IMG/VR virus record: IMGVR_UViG_3300041964_000206
Span: 1 to 31,346 of that record
Source of the DNA: a virus
Reading direction: 5' to 3' (one strand)
Length of the DNA stretch: 31,346 nucleotides
In this document: positions 1-31,346 of the stretch, one piece after another
How the letters are laid out: each line of letters begins with the position of its first letter
How positions within the stretch are numbered: position 1 is the stretch's first letter
The notes under the pieces: model-generated
Database searches by the model: none
What the model saw: only the letters and a program-made list of their open reading frames with translations
Told to the model about the DNA's origin: nothing
Translations under genes and position numbers: made by a program

Positions 1-261
1 TCAGGCTGACCGCCCAGGGGAAGAGAAGGCGACCTCCAGGTCGAAGATGATGAACAGGATGGAGACCAGGTAGAAGCGCACGTCGAACTTCAGCCGCGCG
101 TCCTCGAACGGGTTGAACCCGCACTCATAGGCGCTGGTCTTTTCCGGGTCCGGATTGGACGGGGCCAGCACCATGGGCGCCAGCATGAAGGCCGCGCCCA
201 GCACGATCGCGATGACCGAGAAGATCACGATCGGCAGGTACTCGAGCAGGAAGGCGTTCAT
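1..261 (-). CDS. nuoA: NADH-quinone oxidoreductase subunit A (apparent C-terminal frameshift)
   Basis: NuoA is a small membrane subunit of respiratory complex I, which passes electrons from NADH to quinone and pumps protons. Seen: an N-terminal hydrophobic helix (about residues 5-30), the family signature [10 protein letters not shown], then [22 protein letters not shown]. The usual continuation is LFPWAV; here the frame slips after LEVAF to SSPGRSA and a stop. Adding one G beside position 25 on the plus strand restores LFPWAVSL, so a single missing base explains the early end. NuoA is normally about 120-130 residues, so the rest should lie left of the window. ATG at 261 is preferred to GTG at 264. 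This is host, not phage. A sequence error is likelier than a true mutation, because the family motif survives intact in the next frame. Confidence 0.9.
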
Positions 262-401
262 CACACTCTAAGGAGGTCGGCGGAAAGGGGTTCCCCGCCG
301 GAGTCGCGCGTATCTAGCCCCTGCCCTCCCCCGTCGCAAACGCTTTGCCGACAGAGGCGCGAAGGGCCGCAGCCGAGGGCGAGAAGACGCCAGGGCCGCC
401 C

Positions 402-478: not shown

Positions 479-555
<77 letters not shown>

Positions 556-623: not shown

Positions 624-757
624 CACCGCTCCGGACGTTCCCTTTCCCGACCTAAACCAGCCGCCCGACGCCACCTGCGGTCGCACCCGAGCACGGACCT
701 GTGGACGAGGGGGGTTCCCGTCTTGTTCTCCGGCCGAGGGAGGCGCAAAGCGCGCCT

Positions 758-1114
758 ATGGGATCCAGAGGTCGCGAGCGGGTCCGGGTCATCCCGGCGT
801 GGACGGAGACGATCGGCAGCCTCATCGAGGAGGGCGCGATCGTCCGGGCCCACTGCTCGGAATGCGGCAAGGAGCGCCTGGTCGACCTGCAGCGGATCCA
901 GCGTGCGAAAGGGCCGCTTTACAGCCTCTGGCTGCGCACCGCGCCCTGCCGGACGAACCCCTGCCGCGGCCGGGTGTGGTTCAGCGCCATGCGGCCCGAC
1001 GCCGGCGTCTGGCCCACGAACATGCGAAATGTGATGCGCCACCAGGTGGAGCCGTTTCATGAGCGATGGCGGGCGTCGCTGACGGGACTGCCGGTTGCAG
1101 CGCCAACGCCCTAG
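758..1114 (+). CDS. Small four-cysteine (zinc-ribbon-like) protein
   Basis: A 118-residue protein of unknown function. The core reads SLIEEGAIVRAHCSEC, then a linker, then LWLRTAPCRTNPCRGRVWF. Cys33, Cys36, Cys64 and Cys69 form a CxxC...CxxxxC pattern suited to zinc binding. I recall similar small cysteine proteins as conserved hypotheticals in alphaproteobacteria and their phages. ATG at 758 is chosen over one at 701 because GGGAGG lies about 15 bases upstream and residues before it look non-coding. It faces the phage lysis genes (convergent, 13-base gap), so it is either the last host gene before the prophage or an accessory phage gene. Its last 20 residues are low in information. Confidence 0.7.
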   Translation: MGSRGRERVRVIPAWTETIGSLIEEGAIVRAHCSECGKERLVDLQRIQRAKGPLYSLWLRTAPCRTNPCRGRVWFSAMRPDAGVWPTNMRNVMRHQVEPFHERWRASLTGLPVAAPTP

Positions 1115-21706: not shown

Positions 21707-23518
21707 CTAGAGGCCCGTGTATTCGAACTTGGGCGCGGCCTCTTCCGGCATGACGGCCGGCTGGATCGCGTTGATCAGGGCGTCGATGCCGTCGATCTTG
21801 TTCGGCGACATCGGCGTCTCCTTCTTCGGGATGATCGTCTCGTCGACCTTGCGGGTGACCACGACGTTCGACGCCATCCAGGTCATGACCGGGTTGCCGT
21901 CGTGAGCGAGCGCCCACGGTCCGGCCTTGACCCGACGCTCGAGCTCTTTCGCCGGGTCGGTCACCGACTTCGCGTTCTTGTGCAGGACCTGGGCGAAGGG
22001 CTCGTCGCCTTCCCCGAAGTCCTCGTTGAGCTTGCTCGCCATCCCGAGCGCCGCAGCGAATTGGTCGAAGGTCGCCCGACGTGCGCCGTAGCGGGCCTTC
22101 CAGTCCCGTACGACGGCCTCGACCGTGTTGTGGTCCACCAGTCGCCCGGGGTCAGCTGCAGGTGCCCTTGGGCCGCCCAGGAGCGATAGGGCGCCGGGCC
22201 CTTTCCCTCCGCATGGGTGGGATCCTGGAGGACCGCGTCGGGCAACCAGAACATCGGCTTGAAGATCAGCTGCTGCTCGCCGGGCTTCGTGGGCGAGTCC
22301 CGGAAGGCGGCCAGCACCAGGGCGGTGATGTCGTCCTTGTCGGCCAGGTCCGCCCCGATCAGGCAGTCCAGGCCGTCGAAGTCCCTCCCACTCGAGCTTC
22401 TCGTCGGTGCAGGCCTTCCAGCTCGTGATGTTCAGCCAGGCCGCCGCGGCGTTCAGCCAGCGGTTGAGGTTCTTGGTGAAGAAGTTCCCCTCGGCCGAGG
22501 GCGACGCCCGGGCGTCGGCCGCATCCTGGCGCATCGAGGCCCAGCTCGGCGTGATGCCGATCATGGGATTGGCCTTCGGCCAGTTCTTCTCGTCGTAGGG
22601 GTCGTCGCCCTCGTCGAGCGTGAAGATGATCGCGAACACGTGGTCCGCCTGGAGCACGCCGGCGAGCACCTTCCCGACGTACAGGCGCTGCTCGTAGCAG
22701 ACGCCGTTCGTGTTGAAGCCGGCCGTGGTGATGATCCACATGAGCGGGTTGCGCCGGGCGCCCATCCCCGACTTCATCACGTCGAACAGCGCGCGATCCT
22801 TGTGAGCGTGCAGCTCGTCGAGGATGGCGACGTGCGGGTTGTGTCCGTCGTTCGTGGAGCCCTTGCTGTTGACGGTCTGGATGAAGCCGCTGTTGTCGGC
22901 GCAGGTGATGGCCTTGGCCCAGACCTTCAGCGCGAAGGCCTCGCACAGGTCGGCGCTCTTGTTGGCCATCTTCTGGGCCGGCTCGAACACCTTCAGCGCC
23001 TGGGCGCCCGTGGTCGCCCCGACGTAGATCTCGGGCCCGACTTCGCCCTCGCAGGTGAGGCAGTAGAGCGCCACGCCAGCGGTCAGCGTCGACTTGGCCC
23101 CTTCCGGGCCATCTCAATGTAGACGTAGGAGAACCGCCGGAGGCCGTCCTCGGTCCGGCGCCATCCGAATATGACCACCAGGATGAAGATCTGCGGCGGC
23201 TCAAGTTCGATCAGTCCGCAGCGCTCGAGGTGCTCCCCTCGCCTGCCGTTCGGGCAGCTGCACCAGTTGCCTTTGACGTGCCCGAGCTTCTCGATGAAGT
23301 CGCAGACGTCGTCGCCGTGCCAGGGATCGAAGCGGTAGCCCCAGGCCTTATCCTTCTTCGCCCGCTTGAGATCGTCCAGGTGGCGCTTGCACGCCTGGCG
23401 GACCTCTTTGCAGGCCACCGCGCGCTTGCCGACGACGTCGCGAGCCCAGCGCTCGGCGATGCCGCTGTAGTCCCGGGCGTGCGTGAGCTCCCTAGCCGCC
23501 GCGGCCGCGCGCGCCCAT
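21707..23518 (-). CDS. terL: Terminase large subunit TerL (four one-base breaks)
   Basis: The packaging motor and nuclease. Seen in order: ARELTHARDYSGIAERWARD at the N-terminus; YRFDPWHGDDVCDFIEKL; ATPase Walker A around residue 140 (EMARKGAKST after repair); Walker B near 232 (VAILDELHAHKD) and the coupling segment MWIITTAGFN; nuclease start near 389 (CLIGADLADKDDITAL); LVDHNTVEAVV; and the C-terminus APKFEYTGL. Frame changes lie near 23505 (extra base), 23098 (missing), 22388 (extra) and 22136 (missing). They cancel: 1812 bases give 603 residues. ATG 23518 becomes usable, and TerS gains its stop, when one base is removed from the GCGCGCG run near 23505. Confidence 0.88.
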
Positions 23519-23924
23519 TCCGCTCGAAAGGGTTCTTCGGCCGACCGTCCTCGGCGCCGCCGGCGCGCTGCACGACGCGGCTCTTGGGGCCGGCCAGGCC
23601 GAACAGCTCGCCCAGCATCCTAAACTGCGCGACGTACGACGCCGGCGCTGAGGCGTCCGCCTCCCGCGCCTTCCGAAGGTTCGCCGCCATGGTGCACCAC
23701 TCGGCGAAGCTTTCGGCGTCGCACTGGCGGGCGCCGTGCGTCACAGCGAGCGCGACGTAGTCCGCCCAGACCTCGGCCACTGCGTCAGGGAGCTTTGGCG
23801 GCGTCAGCGACAACGCCGGGGAGAGCGTCTCGATTATGTCGACGCTCGCGGACCGGCATGGCTGCACCGTGCCGCGCTGCTTGTGGACCGATTTGGGCTC
23901 TGGCTTTTTTCCGGGAGCCGGCAT
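23492..23924 (-). CDS. terS: Terminase small subunit, P27 family (one-base break at the end)
   Basis: Recognises phage DNA for packaging. The N-terminus MPAPGKKPEPKSVHKQRGTVQP is the usual basic P27-type start; LTPPKLPDAVAEVWADYVALAV, DAESFAEWCTMAANLRKA, SYVAQFRMLGELFGLAGPKSR and the closing KNPFER follow the family. As written the frame runs on into TerL as Arg/Ser-rich antisense-like residues. Removing one base in the GCGCGCG run near 23505 gives a stop at 23492 after about 143 residues, overlapping the TerL start by 27 bases. The same single change repairs TerL, which strongly supports it. Confidence 0.88.
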
Positions 23925-25579: not shown

Positions 25580-25851
25580 AGCACCATCCATACTGGAGCG
25601 GGGGCGGTCTTCACCGAGGTCCTGAGGAGGTCGAGGGCCCGCAGTAGCGGACCGGCTCGCGGCAGCCGAGCGGCTGAACTGTCCACCGTCACGCGGCGGA
25701 CGGTCAGCCCTTCAAGGCAATGCAGGCTCCTCTTTGGCCACCAGACCATGATCGTCGGGTCAGCGTGGTGCCGCCAGTCGGGCCAGGTGAAGCCGCCCGC
25801 TTCGGCCATGTAGCGGTCGCTCACGACCACCACTTCGCTGACCTGGTTCAT
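25576..25851 (-). CDS. Hypothetical phage early protein
   Basis: A 91-residue protein, unrecognised. The N-terminal half is rich in Trp/His (GGFTWPDWRHHADPTIMVWW), the C-terminal half basic (LTVRRVTVDSSAARLPRAGP). It starts in an ATGA overlap with the DUF3164 gene and so is probably coupled to it. It is the last gene of the small-gene operon running from the integrase. Confidence 0.6.
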   Translation of the reverse strand: MNQVSEVVVVSDRYMAEAGGFTWPDWRHHADPTIMVWWPKRSLHCLEGLTVRRVTVDSSAARLPRAGPLLRALDLLRTSVKTAPAPVWMVL

Positions 25852-26495
25852 GCTGTGGCGACATCCAGCGTGACGGCTTCCCAGTTCGCCTGGGGCGTCT
25901 TGCGGGTGTGGAAGCGGACGTACCGGCTCGAGCCGATCACGCGGATGCTGTCGGTGATCGCCTGCATGGCGCGCTTCCAGCGCGGGTCATCGATGTCGAG
26001 GCGCTGCAGCGCGAACAGCGCGCCGCGGTTGAACTGGCCGGCCTTGTCGACCCGGAATGCGTTGGCGACGATCGCCTGCAGCTCCGGCCGGCTGTCGGCC
26101 GCCCACTCGCCAAGGCACTCGTCGACCAGGGCCTTGGCCGTCTGCAGCTGGGCGCCGAACGCGATCAGGTCGGCCACCTGGACGGTGACCTTCAGCAGCC
26201 CGTCAAAGCTGCTGAGCGTGATGTTGCCCTTGGCGCCGCCCACCTTGGCCTTGTGCTCGGCGGCGAGGATCGCGCTGAAGACGTCCACTTCGCTGAACGC
26301 CCATGCCTTGAACGCCGCGATCGCGGCGGCCAGCTCGGCCGCCCGTGCGTGCAGTTGGCGCACCAGGCCGTCCTCGAGCTTGTCGGCGGCCTTCACCAGG
26401 CTGATCGGCACCAGTGAGCCCTTGGCGTCGGTCATGTAGAGCTGGCCGTTCGCCTGCTCGACGCCGGCCGGCAAATCCATGCGTTCTTCGCTCAC
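25848..26495 (-). CDS. DUF3164 family protein
   Basis: A 215-residue protein. GVEQANGQLYMTDAKGSLVPISLVKAADKLEDGLVRQL at the start, AFSEVDVFSAILAAEHKAKVGGAKGNITLSSFDGLLKVTVQVADLIAFG in the middle and ANAFRVDKAGQFNRGALFALQRLDIDDPRWKRAM later are the DUF3164 pattern. The family is best known from Mu-like transposable phages, near replication control genes; its activity is unknown. Here it is in a lambda-like phage with a tyrosine integrase. GTG 26495 is the start, in a GTGA overlap with the preceding stop. Confidence 0.88.
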   Translation of the reverse strand: MSEERMDLPAGVEQANGQLYMTDAKGSLVPISLVKAADKLEDGLVRQLHARAAELAAAIAAFKAWAFSEVDVFSAILAAEHKAKVGGAKGNITLSSFDGLLKVTVQVADLIAFGAQLQTAKALVDECLGEWAADSRPELQAIVANAFRVDKAGQFNRGALFALQRLDIDDPRWKRAMQAITDSIRVIGSSRYVRFHTRKTPQANWEAVTLDVATA

Positions 26496-26884
26496 AGCGT
26501 GAGGCCCTTCCCTGCCCGCTGCAGCCCGACGCGCAGCGCGTGGTCCTTGAGCTCCCGGAGGGCGGTGTCGCGGGCGCTGAACGCGTGCACCGGCCGCCCT
26601 TGGTCGTCGTAGCCATCCGCCAGATCGCTGCCGGCGCGATCGCCCTTGCAGCACCAGCGGCGGCCGTCGGCCGTCTGGTACTCGTGCAGGCAATTGCACT
26701 GAGTGCCCGCGGGCAGCGGCTTGTAACCGCTCGGTACGGCGGCCTCGCCTCGGGACAGCGCACGCAGCTGGTGGGCGATGTCGCTACGCTCAGCGAAGAA
26801 GCGCTCCGGATCCCGACGGTCGACGATCAGCGAGCCCACGCGCGAGGCGAGGGCCAGCAGCTGCGCCGCGTCGGCCGGGCTCAC
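26492..26884 (-). CDS. Hypothetical phage early protein with Cys/Trp motif
   Basis: A 130-residue protein, no family recognised. A helical N-terminal half (AAQLLALASRVGSLIVDRRDPERFFAERSDIAHQLRAL) is followed by GTQCNCLHEYQTADGRRWCCKGDRAG, with CNC and WCC cysteines that could bind metal. GTG 26884 overlaps the preceding stop by 4 bases, and its own stop overlaps the DUF3164 start. Translational coupling and operon position suggest a role with DUF3164. Confidence 0.7.
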   Translation of the reverse strand: MSPADAAQLLALASRVGSLIVDRRDPERFFAERSDIAHQLRALSRGEAAVPSGYKPLPAGTQCNCLHEYQTADGRRWCCKGDRAGSDLADGYDDQGRPVHAFSARDTALRELKDHALRVGLQRAGKGLTL

Positions 26885-27048: not shown

Positions 27049-27283
27049 GCCGAAGCTCCCTGCGAGAGGCGGCGCGTGCGCCAGCCCTTGGTGGCGTGGA
27101 GGCAGTGCTCGCGGCCCGCTTCGGTCCGGCGCGCGATGATGTGCCGGTCCGGCCGGCCGCGATCGCGCAGAAGGCGGGGCGTCAGCCCCGAGAGCGCATC
27201 GTTGCCCAGGTCGTAGCCCAGGAGGACCTCGCCATGTCGTCGATCGTCGAACCCATCGGGGTCATGTCGGGAGCTTGGCTCAC
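27045..27283 (-). CDS. Small hypothetical protein after the integrase (one-base break)
   Basis: GTG 27283 overlaps the integrase stop (GTGA) and reads MSQAPDMTPMGSTIDD. The coding-like residues GEVLLGYDLGNDALSGLTPRL, RPDRHIIARRTEAGREH and LHATKGWRTRRLSQGASA continue in another frame. Adding one base near 27235 joins them into 79 residues ending at 27045, and 239+1 is divisible by three. No family is recognised; the protein is basic at its C-terminus. Its stop overlaps the next start (TTGA). Confidence 0.6.
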
Positions 27284-28275
27284 AGGCCCACCTTTCCGGC
27301 TGCGTTGCGTTTGAAGAGCTGAGCTTCGCGGTCGTAGCCGAGCAGCGTGTCGACCTTGGCGTGGCGCGTCTGGCGCTGGACGTCGGCGAGGCCGACGTTC
27401 CGGCCGAGCGCGCTGGTGACTAGGCCGGCGCGAAGCGAGTGACCGGCGAACACCGCGGGATCGAGCTTCACCCGGTCCGCGGCCGCCTTGACGATGGTGG
27501 CGATCGCCTGCCCCGACAGGGCGACGATCCCGAGGTGGCCATGACGGTCGATCGACCGGAACACCGGGCCGCGCTTCACACCGGAGGCCTGCAGCCAGGC
27601 CTCGACCGACCGGACCGGGCAGTACTTGGTCTTGCCGTAGGGCACCGCGATCAGCTGGCCGTGGCCTTCCTGGTCGCCTTTCGACCGGCCGAGCCAGAGC
27701 TCGGCGCCGCCGGCGACGAACCGGAGCTCGTTGGTCCCGCCACCCAGCTCGAGGCTGGCCAGCTCCGACCGGCGCAGCGCGCTGGCGAAACCGAACAGAA
27801 GGACCGCGCGATCGCGCAGGCCCGCCAGGTTCGTCGGCGTCTTGTCGATCGCGCGCTTCAAGTCCTCGGTGACCAGCGCCCGCTTCTTGCGGGGCGGGCG
27901 CCCGTGGGCGCGGCGGATGCCGCTCCACACCCGGCGGAGGTCTCCATGATCGGGCGGAGCGTGGCCCGCCTCGCGGTGAGCCGTCCGGATCGCTGCAAGT
28001 CTACGCGCCAACGTCGACGCCGCGTGCGTGGGCGCGCGGGCGGTCAGGTACAGGGCGAGGGTCGCCGCTTCCGCCGGGAGCGGGACGGCGCCGACGCTGG
28101 CGCACCAGCCGGAGAAGTCCGCCCAGTCGCTCCCATAGGCGCGCCTGGTGTTCGCCGCTCTTCCGAGCTCGGCGTAGGACTGGGCCTCCTCGGCCAGTGT
28201 TCGAACAGCCGCCGCGTCGAGTTTCGCGACGGCCGAATTGTGCGGGCCGACCGGGACGAGATCCTGGCCGGGCAT
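27280..28275 (-). CDS. Tyrosine recombinase (phage integrase)
   Basis: Catalyses site-specific insertion and excision. The 331-residue protein has an N-terminal SAM-like DNA-binding domain (about 25-110, YGSDWADFSGWCASVG) and a catalytic domain. Catalytic residues seen: Arg168 in SALRRSELASL, Lys199 in GRSKGDQEG, His279 and Arg282 in GHSLRAGLV, His305 in QTRHAKVDT, and nucleophile Tyr314 in LLGYDREAQ. All are present, so it should be active. ATG 28275 has GAGGAGG 6 bases upstream. It lies 27 kb from the tRNA rather than at a prophage end, and its stop overlaps the next small gene, so it heads an early operon. Confidence 0.93.
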   Translation of the reverse strand: MPGQDLVPVGPHNSAVAKLDAAAVRTLAEEAQSYAELGRAANTRRAYGSDWADFSGWCASVGAVPLPAEAATLALYLTARAPTHAASTLARRLAAIRTAHREAGHAPPDHGDLRRVWSGIRRAHGRPPRKKRALVTEDLKRAIDKTPTNLAGLRDRAVLLFGFASALRRSELASLELGGGTNELRFVAGGAELWLGRSKGDQEGHGQLIAVPYGKTKYCPVRSVEAWLQASGVKRGPVFRSIDRHGHLGIVALSGQAIATIVKAAADRVKLDPAVFAGHSLRAGLVTSALGRNVGLADVQRQTRHAKVDTLLGYDREAQLFKRNAAGKVGL

Positions 28276-28916: not shown

Positions 28917-29576
28917 TCAGGCCGCCTCGGCCTCGACGGGCAACGTGCCGACCAGCTGCTCCACCTCGAGCACATGCCTCTCGCGACGGTGCGTGCGGTA
29001 CCCCGCGCCGACCCGGACGCAGGCCTCGACCACCACCGCGACCTGGTGCTCCGGCCGGTGCTCGCCGGCGACGCGCTTGACGATGTGCCGCCAGTTGCTG
29101 CGTGCTGCGCCTGGAGCGAGCAGCGCGGTCATGACGGCCGCGGCCATCGGCCCGGCCACCTCGAGAACGCGGTCGACACGCAGGCCAGCGTCAAGCACGA
29201 TGTCGTCTACCAGCGCCCGCGAGCCCGGCACGCCGCCGCCGCCCGTCTTGTTGTAGATGTCGTCCGCCATGCCGACGCCGGCGCGCAGCTCGACGTCCTG
29301 CTCGAGCTCGCGTGCGGCGTCGAATTCTTCCCGCTCGAGCACGCGCATGCCGTCGGCGCGCCGGCGGCCGTTCAGCAGTGCGAAGACGTCGTAGCGCCGG
29401 GCCCGCTCCACCTGGCGCTTGGCGTCCAGGTCGAAGACGACGTCCTGGTTCGCCGACAGGCGCAGCGCGTCGCGATCGGCGCCCCACTTCTCCGGATTGC
29501 GCCGGCGCTCGTGCGCCAGGCGCGCGGCTTCGGCCGGATCCATCGGGCCGAGACGACGCTTCTTCGATCGGGACAT
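28917..29576 (-). CDS. Hypothetical phage early protein (219 aa)
   Basis: A basic N-terminus (MSRSKKRRLGPMDPAEAARLA), then VVFDLDAKRQVERARRYDVFALL, MRVLEREEFDAARELEQDVEL, and a helical C-terminal part (AAAVMTALLAPGAARSNWRHIVKRVAGE, VAVVVEACVRVGAGYRTH). Layout loosely recalls DUF6456-type proteins of alphaproteobacteria, but I cannot confirm it. Starts 4 bases after the 91-residue gene, so both probably share the transcript downstream of the LexA-type box. A DNA-binding or regulatory role is plausible from the basic N-terminus and position. Confidence 0.75.
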   Translation of the reverse strand: MSRSKKRRLGPMDPAEAARLAHERRRNPEKWGADRDALRLSANQDVVFDLDAKRQVERARRYDVFALLNGRRRADGMRVLEREEFDAARELEQDVELRAGVGMADDIYNKTGGGGVPGSRALVDDIVLDAGLRVDRVLEVAGPMAAAVMTALLAPGAARSNWRHIVKRVAGEHRPEHQVAVVVEACVRVGAGYRTHRRERHVLEVEQLVGTLPVEAEAA

Positions 29577-29580
29577 GAGC

Positions 29581-29856
29581 TCAGGAATCCACAGGGTCGT
29601 TAAGATCGGCGAAACTGTGATCCCGCGCCGGATGGGCGGCGAAGGGCAGCCGGATCTGAAGCGACAGCAGGTCGCGCCGCACCACCTCGACCGGCTCCTC
29701 CGCGGTGCGCGCCTCGGCCGCGGCGTCCAGCAGGTACCTGAGAAAGGCCCGGCGCTCCCACACCGTGGCGCAGGCCTGCAGGCCGCTCTCGATCAGGGAC
29801 GAGGCGCGGTCCCTGGGCGGCAGACTGACCACGTTGGAACCGTTCGCGTTGCTCAC
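29581..29856 (-). CDS. Hypothetical phage early protein under a LexA-type box
   Basis: A 91-residue protein of unknown function: SNANGSNVVSLPPRDRASSLIESGLQA, then CATVWERRAFLRYLLDAAAEART and VVRRDLLSLQIRLPF. No family recognised. It starts with GTG at 29856. A GTTC-N7-GTTC element ends 33 bases upstream, the motif bound by LexA in alphaproteobacteria, so the gene and the one after it may be induced by DNA damage. Confidence 0.7.
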   Translation of the reverse strand: MSNANGSNVVSLPPRDRASSLIESGLQACATVWERRAFLRYLLDAAAEARTAEEPVEVVRRDLLSLQIRLPFAAHPARDHSFADLNDPVDS

Positions 29857-29888
29857 AACACGAACTTAGCCGTTAGCGCGGCTGAACG

Positions 29889-29903
29889 GAACATGAGCGG
29901 AAC
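29889..29903 (-). promoter_or_regulatory. LexA-type SOS box (GTTC-N7-GTTC)
   Basis: Minus strand GTTCCGCTCATGTTC, an exact GTTC-N7-GTTC direct repeat, the LexA recognition pattern in Caulobacter, rhizobia and Rhodobacter. It is part of a larger direct repeat (plus strand TGAACGGAAC 29883-29892 and TGAGCGGAAC 29894-29903, 11 bases apart). Flanking elements are AGCCG-N6-CGGCT (29870-29885) and CCGCATGCGG (29905-29914). Confidence 0.65.
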
Positions 29904-29938
29904 GCCGCATGCGGAGATCGGGTACGGCGCCCATTCTC

Positions 29939-30273
29939 CTAGCCGCTTCGGCCGATCTCGAGCGCGACCGTCTCGAGCCGCGGCGTTCCGCCGGCGAGCT
30001 GCAGGTCCGGCCGGCCGGATACCCAGGCGCGGACCCTGCCCACCAGGTCGGGATCCCCGTTCCGCCAGCCGTCGATCGAGGTGAACGTCCAGTCGCCCAA
30101 GGCGAGCAGCCCTTCGGCGGCGCCCTGGGCCGCGCGCAACCCGCCCACCACCTCGATGATCGCGTGACCCGTCGCCAGGTGGACGACTTCCCAGGTCGGG
30201 GCGGCGCTTCCGTTCTGCGACCGATTTATCGGTCGGAAGTCGGAAGTGGCTAACCGTGCGCTGCCTTGTTCAT
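29939..30273 (-). CDS. Hypothetical small protein (probable one-base break at the start)
   Basis: Coding-like residues are APTWEVVHLATGHAIIEVVGG, LRAAQGAAEGLLALGDWTFTSIDGW, RAWVSGRPDLQLAGGTPRLETVALEIGRSG. No family recognised. The frame has no good start: the open frame upstream is Arg/Gly-rich and not coding-like. ATG 30273 reads MNKAAHG then stops; adding one base near 30255 would join it to LATSDFRPINRSQNGS and give 111 residues. If instead the gene starts later, the palindrome at 30218-30235 lies in its leader. The end is firm, the start is not. Confidence 0.45.
30218..30235. promoter_or_regulatory. Perfect 18-base palindrome, candidate operator
   Basis: CGACCGAT, TT, ATCGGTCG: 8-base arms with a 2-base centre, in a local A+T-rich patch, followed by two copies of CGGAAGT (30234-30247). 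It is typical of a dimeric repressor site. It overlaps the doubtful start of the 29939-30273 gene. Binding protein unknown. Confidence 0.5.
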
Positions 30274-30675
30274 GAGACGGCCGCGCCCCCGCCCACTCCG
30301 GCCCGATCCGACCGGCCACAACACCACCACGCCGAGCGGGCCCGAAACCCAGCCGCCGTCCACCCGCGCGCCCTCCGCCGATGCGGTTGCTATGGGCGCC
30401 ACCCTCCAGCCGCCCGCGCTTTCGCCGCCGCTGGTCAACGGAGCCCCGCCGCGGCCTGTTTGCGAGCGACGGACCCCCTGCCCCCTTCACGCCGACGGAA
30501 CGGACGTCCGCCTCCCGGCGGCCCTCCCTGGTGCCGCCTGTGGGCCAGTTTAAGGCGGAGTCCGGGCGTCTCCGCACTCGGGCGGCGCTGCCGGGTGGAG
30601 CATCCCGGCGCCGTCGTCGGCGTCTTCGCCAACCATGTGAGCGCCGACCAGGCGCTCTCCTTTCCTCTCCCCACA
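30274..30675. other. Region with no supported gene
   Basis: About 400 bases between the doubtful small gene and the winged-helix gene stop. Open frames here are Arg/Pro/Gly-rich and lack Shine-Dalgarno sites. A 28-residue frame (MVGEDADDGAGMLHP...) starting near 30635 follows AGGAGAG but at too great a distance. I see no clear iterons or terminator. Confidence 0.4.
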
Positions 30676-31346
30676 TCAGATGAGGCCCTGGTCCGGACTC
30701 TTGGCGCTTGGCGGTATCGCGTTCTGTCTCGCCTCGCGGCCGGCGAGCGCGGCCCCCGCCCGGTCGCAGGCGTCCAGCAGCCCGTTCGCTTGCGCGTCGT
30801 AGAGGCGGAGCTGCTGGCCCGCGCCTCCCGGGCCGTGACGTGGTCGTCCGGGACGGCCGTCTTCCGCAGCAGCTTCCGCGCGGCGTCCGGGATCGAGAGG
30901 CGGTAGGCGTTGGATGTCTGGCGGACCTGGGGGCCGCGGCGGCCGAGCGCGCCGTCCACGGGCGTGAACCTCCGGATCCAGTCCAGGAAGCCGTGCGCCT
31001 TCAGCGCGGCCAGCGCGCGCACGACGGCGTCCTTAGAGCGCCGGGTGGATCGCATGATGTACTCGATCGCCGGCTCCAGGAGCCGGTCCCTCCCGCCGCT
31101 CAGCGCCAGGCCGACCAGGGTGCGCAGGACCTCGCGCCCGACGTGGCCGATCGGACCGTTCCGGCTTCCGGGCTGTCGTCGCATGCGGTCATAGATCTCG
31201 GCGGCCGAGAGGATGTCCCGCTTGTCGCGGCGCCGGAAGCCCTGCCGGTATTCCCGAGGCTCCGCGCCGGCGAGCAGGCTGTTGCGGCGAACCGGCTGAC
31301 ACGTCCGCCGGCGCTCCGGCTCCCGCCAGGGGTCGGCGGCGCTCAC
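30676..31346 (-). CDS. Winged-helix DNA-binding / replication-like protein (edge, one-base break)
   Basis: The coding part reads DKRDILSAAEIYDRMRRQPGS, NGPIGHVGREVLRTLVGLALSGG, LEPAIEYIMRSTRRSKDAVVRALAALKAHGFLDWIRR and TSNAYRLSIP. The STRRSKDAVVRALAALKAHGFLDWIRR block is a helix-turn-helix with following wing, as in replication-type or regulatory winged-helix proteins of alphaproteobacterial phages and plasmids. After TAREARA the frame turns Ser/Thr/Arg-rich; adding one base near 30825 gives QQLRLYDAQANGLLDACDRAG and a stop at 30676 (671+1 bases, 223 residues). The GTG at the last window base may not be the true start. Confidence 0.7.

Follow-up and report, generated by a model that had tools for sequence, protein, structure and literature searches.

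The window (the whole 31,346-nt stretch of DNA that was analysed) comes from an integrated prophage and comprises its left part and one flank of host DNA; the right end is missing. The prophage starts just after a host tRNA gene, and integration at the end of a tRNA is the usual pattern. The late genes (terminase, portal, capsid and tail) run leftward, and the window stops within the early region, on the side opposite the host DNA. The prophage was placed by the following features:

1-264, minus strand: host nuoA, with the end of its reading frame broken (Pfam PF00507, E=7e-20)
479-555, plus strand: host tRNA-Asp, the probable attachment site (ARAGORN)
27280-28275, minus strand: tyrosine integrase (Pfam PF00589, E=2e-7; phrog_1, E=3e-14)

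Of the 12 nearest genomic loci examined, 10 likewise had a tRNA-Asp gene within the few kb fetched around nuoA. No repeat of tRNA-Asp of at least 14 nt that could serve as the right attachment site was found elsewhere in the window, so the opposite prophage end probably lies beyond 31346. Several related prophage records in IMG/VR measure 37-42 kb, compared with 31.3 kb here. Besides its tyrosine integrase, the prophage encodes a DUF3164 protein (25848-26506) like those of the Mu-like phages Rhodobacter phage RC1 and Pseudomonas phage B3. Reading frames appear to be broken at the end of NuoA, in TerS (23211-23924) after approximately residue 142 and in the replication-like gene after approximately residue 170 (~30800-30850); a TerS relative matches the TerS of the window in two pieces, and the breaks are either sequencing errors or decay.

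The nuoA flank and the relatives of the replication gene and of the terminase indicate that the host is an alphaproteobacterium. At the DNA level the nuoA of the window is 79-80% identical to the nearest genomes, and its best three matches (G368, G290 and G075) come from one order, which, judging by this single gene, is the probable host order. The LexA target of alphaproteobacteria is GTTC-N7-GTTC (PMC3323433; PMC12700426). In Caulobacter the motif is (T/A)TGTTC(N6)TGTTC (PMC13384398); it is common to the SOS promoters of this bacterium, ~97% of which have one box (PMC12700426). Within the probable host order we found the core upstream of lexA in all 31 loci and upstream of recA in 12 of 33, and inside none of 64 lexA and recA gene bodies.

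Near its right end the window contains a LexA-type box in the 82-nt gap between two early reading frames. The features of this region are:

28917-29576, minus strand: gene for a 219-aa DUF6456-like protein, in second place of the presumed unit (Pfam PF20057 at E=4e-4, which does not reach the family cut-off)
29581-29856, minus strand: 91-aa ORF with a GTG start, the first reading frame after the box (coding signal +0.15 per codon)
29868-29883: inverted repeat AGCCG-N6-CGGCT, between the box and the 29581-29856 gene
29883-29903, minus strand: 10-nt direct repeat TGAACGGAAC/TGAGCGGAAC, spaced by 11 and largely the box itself
29889-29903, minus strand: LexA-type box GTTCCGCTCATGTTC, with an exact GTTC-N7-GTTC core
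29905-29914: palindrome CCGCATGCGG, adjoining the box
29939-30205, minus strand: coding stretch upstream of the box (coding signal +0.17 per codon; start approximate)
30435-31346, minus strand: replication-like winged-helix gene that runs up to the end of the contig, with a probable frame break near residue 170

The original prediction had named an exact GTTC-N7-GTTC match, a neighbouring palindrome and the AGCCG-N6-CGGCT repeat, all of which are present. It had set the box 33 bases before the GTG; the box does lie just upstream of this start codon, at a counted distance of 32 nt. The 11-spaced direct repeat that it also listed exists as well, but it provides no independent evidence, because an alphaproteobacterial LexA box is itself an 11-nt direct repeat. 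Sigma-70-like promoter hexamers were not found near the box by a consensus scan, a method that is weak in alphaproteobacteria, and no clear ribosome-binding site was seen before the GTG at 29856. We rejected as a meaningful element a perfect 12-nt inverted repeat (29897-29908/29980-29991), since 0.85 such repeats are expected per window. The multibranched fold that it encloses had a z of about -3 in a segment selected to cover it, and was likewise rejected, its sole Rfam match being far below the gathering score.

The two genes downstream of the box have few relatives. For the 91-aa ORF there was no match in Pfam or PHROGs and no relative in viral contigs, and the 363 genomes of the host order gave only marginal matches. 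The 219-aa protein is 30-32% identical to proteins of two loci (L109 and L295), and no relative of it was found in viral and genome contigs (by pattern), in phage records or in 385 genomes of the class. Structure models of both proteins were of low confidence, with a mean pLDDT of 59 (unreliable) for the 91-aa ORF and 58 for the 219-aa protein.

Taken by itself, the bare GTTC-N7-GTTC core is unremarkable in this window: three exact cores were observed against 0.84 expected, and 6 of 100 shuffles of the window contained at least three. We scored the box with a class-wide LexA matrix, made from 36 lexA and recA boxes of the whole alphaproteobacterial class, in which it came lowest of the three cores, at the bottom of the range of real boxes, and its spacer was no better than random (25% of random spacers equalled it). 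This matrix was set aside once nuoA had fixed the host lineage, and one built from LexA boxes that precede lexA and recA in the probable host order was adopted because LexA box spacers differ between orders. In its 15-nt form the box obtained 17.97 bits, mid-range among real sites, a gain that is to be read in the light of a switch made after the first result was known; its spacer scored at least as high as 14 of 34 real spacers. Two sites in the window reached at least 17.4 bits in this form, where 0.087 were expected (P of two or more ~0.003). With the flanks included (19-nt matrix) the box fell at the 9-14th percentile of real host-order sites, and a site this good appeared in 7-15% of simulated windows. 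By the standard of host-order LexA boxes, therefore, it appears weak but acceptable. It resembles recA boxes of the host order: one of these (GTTCCGCTTGTGTTC) differs from it at 2 of 15 positions, and those of L270, L266 and L271 at 2-3 of 15.

The position of the box adds weight, as it falls in the ~3.6% of the window that is non-coding and no more than 100 nt ahead of a start, a fraction estimated from a rough hand-made gene list. Chance matches are scarce in the 82-nt gap around it. The same upstream fraction holds another LexA-like site, near the tRNA end of the prophage:

714-728, plus strand: second LexA-like site GTTCCCGTCTTGTTC, 29 nt before the ATG at 758
758-1114, plus strand: Cys-containing ORF of 118 aa, located at the edge of the prophage (its coding signal is weak, +0.05 per codon)

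This ORF, which was examined because of the site and together with it adjoins the tRNA end, matched no family and had no relatives in viral contigs.

Conservation of the box was sought among homologous prophages, as had been proposed with the original prediction, and no relative was found to carry it at the same place. An exact 20-mer search of viral contigs gave no match, and the box was absent in front of the distant homologues of the 219-aa protein in L109 and L295. Almost no relatives of the two downstream genes turned up in the collections searched. The related prophages contained 20 cores in 561 kb over 27 loci, some of which are one prophage present in two collections; this density, ~1.1 per 31 kb, is what chance would give. 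One prophage of the related group, from Sphingobium, has a strong-looking LexA core (GTTCTCTTCTTGTTC, L087:7807-7821) 6 nt before a 102-aa ORF.

The box had been described as standing in front of the early operon. On the strand of the box, however, it is preceded by both the coding stretch and the replication-like gene, which puts it inside the early region and not at its front. Over residues 11-170 the replication-like gene shares ~50% identity with alphaproteobacterial plasmid proteins ('replication protein A' and HTH proteins), and a weak match to phrog_391 was also seen (E=0.003). In a terminase relative of this phage, G011, an O-like replication gene is followed by another gene and then by a DUF6456-like homologue; ~3 kb further upstream there is a weak candidate for a CII-like gene (E=0.007). 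Comparison with this one relative suggests that cI, cro and cII of the phage in the window likely lie beyond the contig end. Searches of Pfam and PHROGs agreed with the original prediction that the window holds no CI-like repressor gene. This absence is uninformative, since the window ends before the likely regulator region and relatives reach 37-42 kb.

We tentatively read the box as a plausible weak operator of the host LexA for the genes starting at 29856 and 29576. Host LexA would bind it with modest affinity, and DNA damage would raise the expression of the 91-aa ORF together with the 219-aa gene as a two-gene unit. The box would then add an SOS-responsive control point within the early (replication) region, acting alongside a regulator that the phage would encode beyond the contig end. 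The presence of a promoter, the binding of LexA and the induction of both genes are what we infer from the DNA. Calling it a LexA-type SOS box is plausible in view of the host class, the motif and the likeness to recA boxes, but the score is weak and no relative was seen to keep the box. The main rival is that GTTC-N7-GTTC arose by chance in a gap of a GC-rich phage and has no LexA binding of consequence, which we consider a serious possibility. The excess of cores is small (three against 0.84), an equal site turned up in 7-15% of simulated windows, the spacer looks random under the class-wide matrix, and neither a promoter signal nor conservation was found. Against chance stand the location of both the box and the second site in the small upstream non-coding fraction and the resemblance to recA boxes of the host order; moreover, high-GC DNA of this order outside the lexA and recA promoters is poorer in cores than the window, with 3 in 248 kb.

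It is also conceivable, though unlikely, that the 11-nt tandem copies GTTCCGCTCAT and GTTCCGTTCAG, one helical turn apart, form an operator or iteron-like repeat bound by a regulator or initiator of the phage. The identity of the copies extends past the GTTC cores to 9 of 10 nt, 5 of the six bases that follow each GTTC agree, compared with 0-4 in the LexA boxes examined, and the replication-like gene lies upstream. There are, however, just two copies with no more nearby, while iterons usually come in more than two, and short repeats in two copies are often due to chance. Less probable still is the proposal of the original prediction that host LexA, through this box, is the main lysogeny repressor of the phage. 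The box is plausible, a second site is located near the left end of the window and no CI-like gene was seen in the window, all of which would fit. But LexA bound downstream of the replication-like gene would not block the replication genes, the box is weak, and the contig ends before the region that holds the weak CII-like candidate in G011. With the box inside the early region, and the lack of CI uninformative in a window that ends so early, this claim was not upheld. We accordingly give very little credence to a siphophage-like alphaproteobacterial prophage whose early and edge genes (sites at 29889 and 714) are both controlled directly by host LexA, which would be the main lysogeny repressor of a phage that lacks a CI-type protein.

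As a candidate weak LexA operator, the box shares with alphaproteobacterial LexA boxes the exact core, the 11-nt direct repeat, the place close upstream of a start codon and a spacer like that of host-order recA boxes. It differs from them in a score within the lowest 9-14% of real host-order sites and in a promoter that is putative, and from the Caulobacter box in having C instead of T before the first half-site (CGTTC(N6)TGTTC in the window). Prophages that depend on SOS and have host LexA sites in their promoters form a recognised class, which is used by PSOSP (PMC12527982). The window resembles this class in that a candidate site for host LexA precedes prophage genes, but the gene behind the box is no known induction gene. 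We judged the box by matrix percentiles and not by the PSOSP heterology index, the threshold of which was set for other hosts. In GIL01 of Bacillus thuringiensis, a tectivirus, lysogeny is repressed by host LexA instead of a repressor of the phage; its LexA boxes are found at the promoters for early replication genes and for late genes, and it uses gp7 (PMC6182141). Like GIL01, the prophage described here has a candidate host LexA site in the early region of a temperate phage; unlike GIL01, the window has one weak box, downstream of a replication-like gene, and its regulator region, with any further boxes ahead of that gene, would lie beyond the contig.

Host LexA sites in prophages are already known, and the box would be a further member if LexA binds it. 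Alone, it would not change ideas on the control of lysogeny. If real, it would reveal another prophage that wires a pair of genes into the DNA-damage response of its host, a case within alphaproteobacterial prophages whose related members show the core at about the chance rate, and it would give the first functional clue for two uncharacterised early genes.
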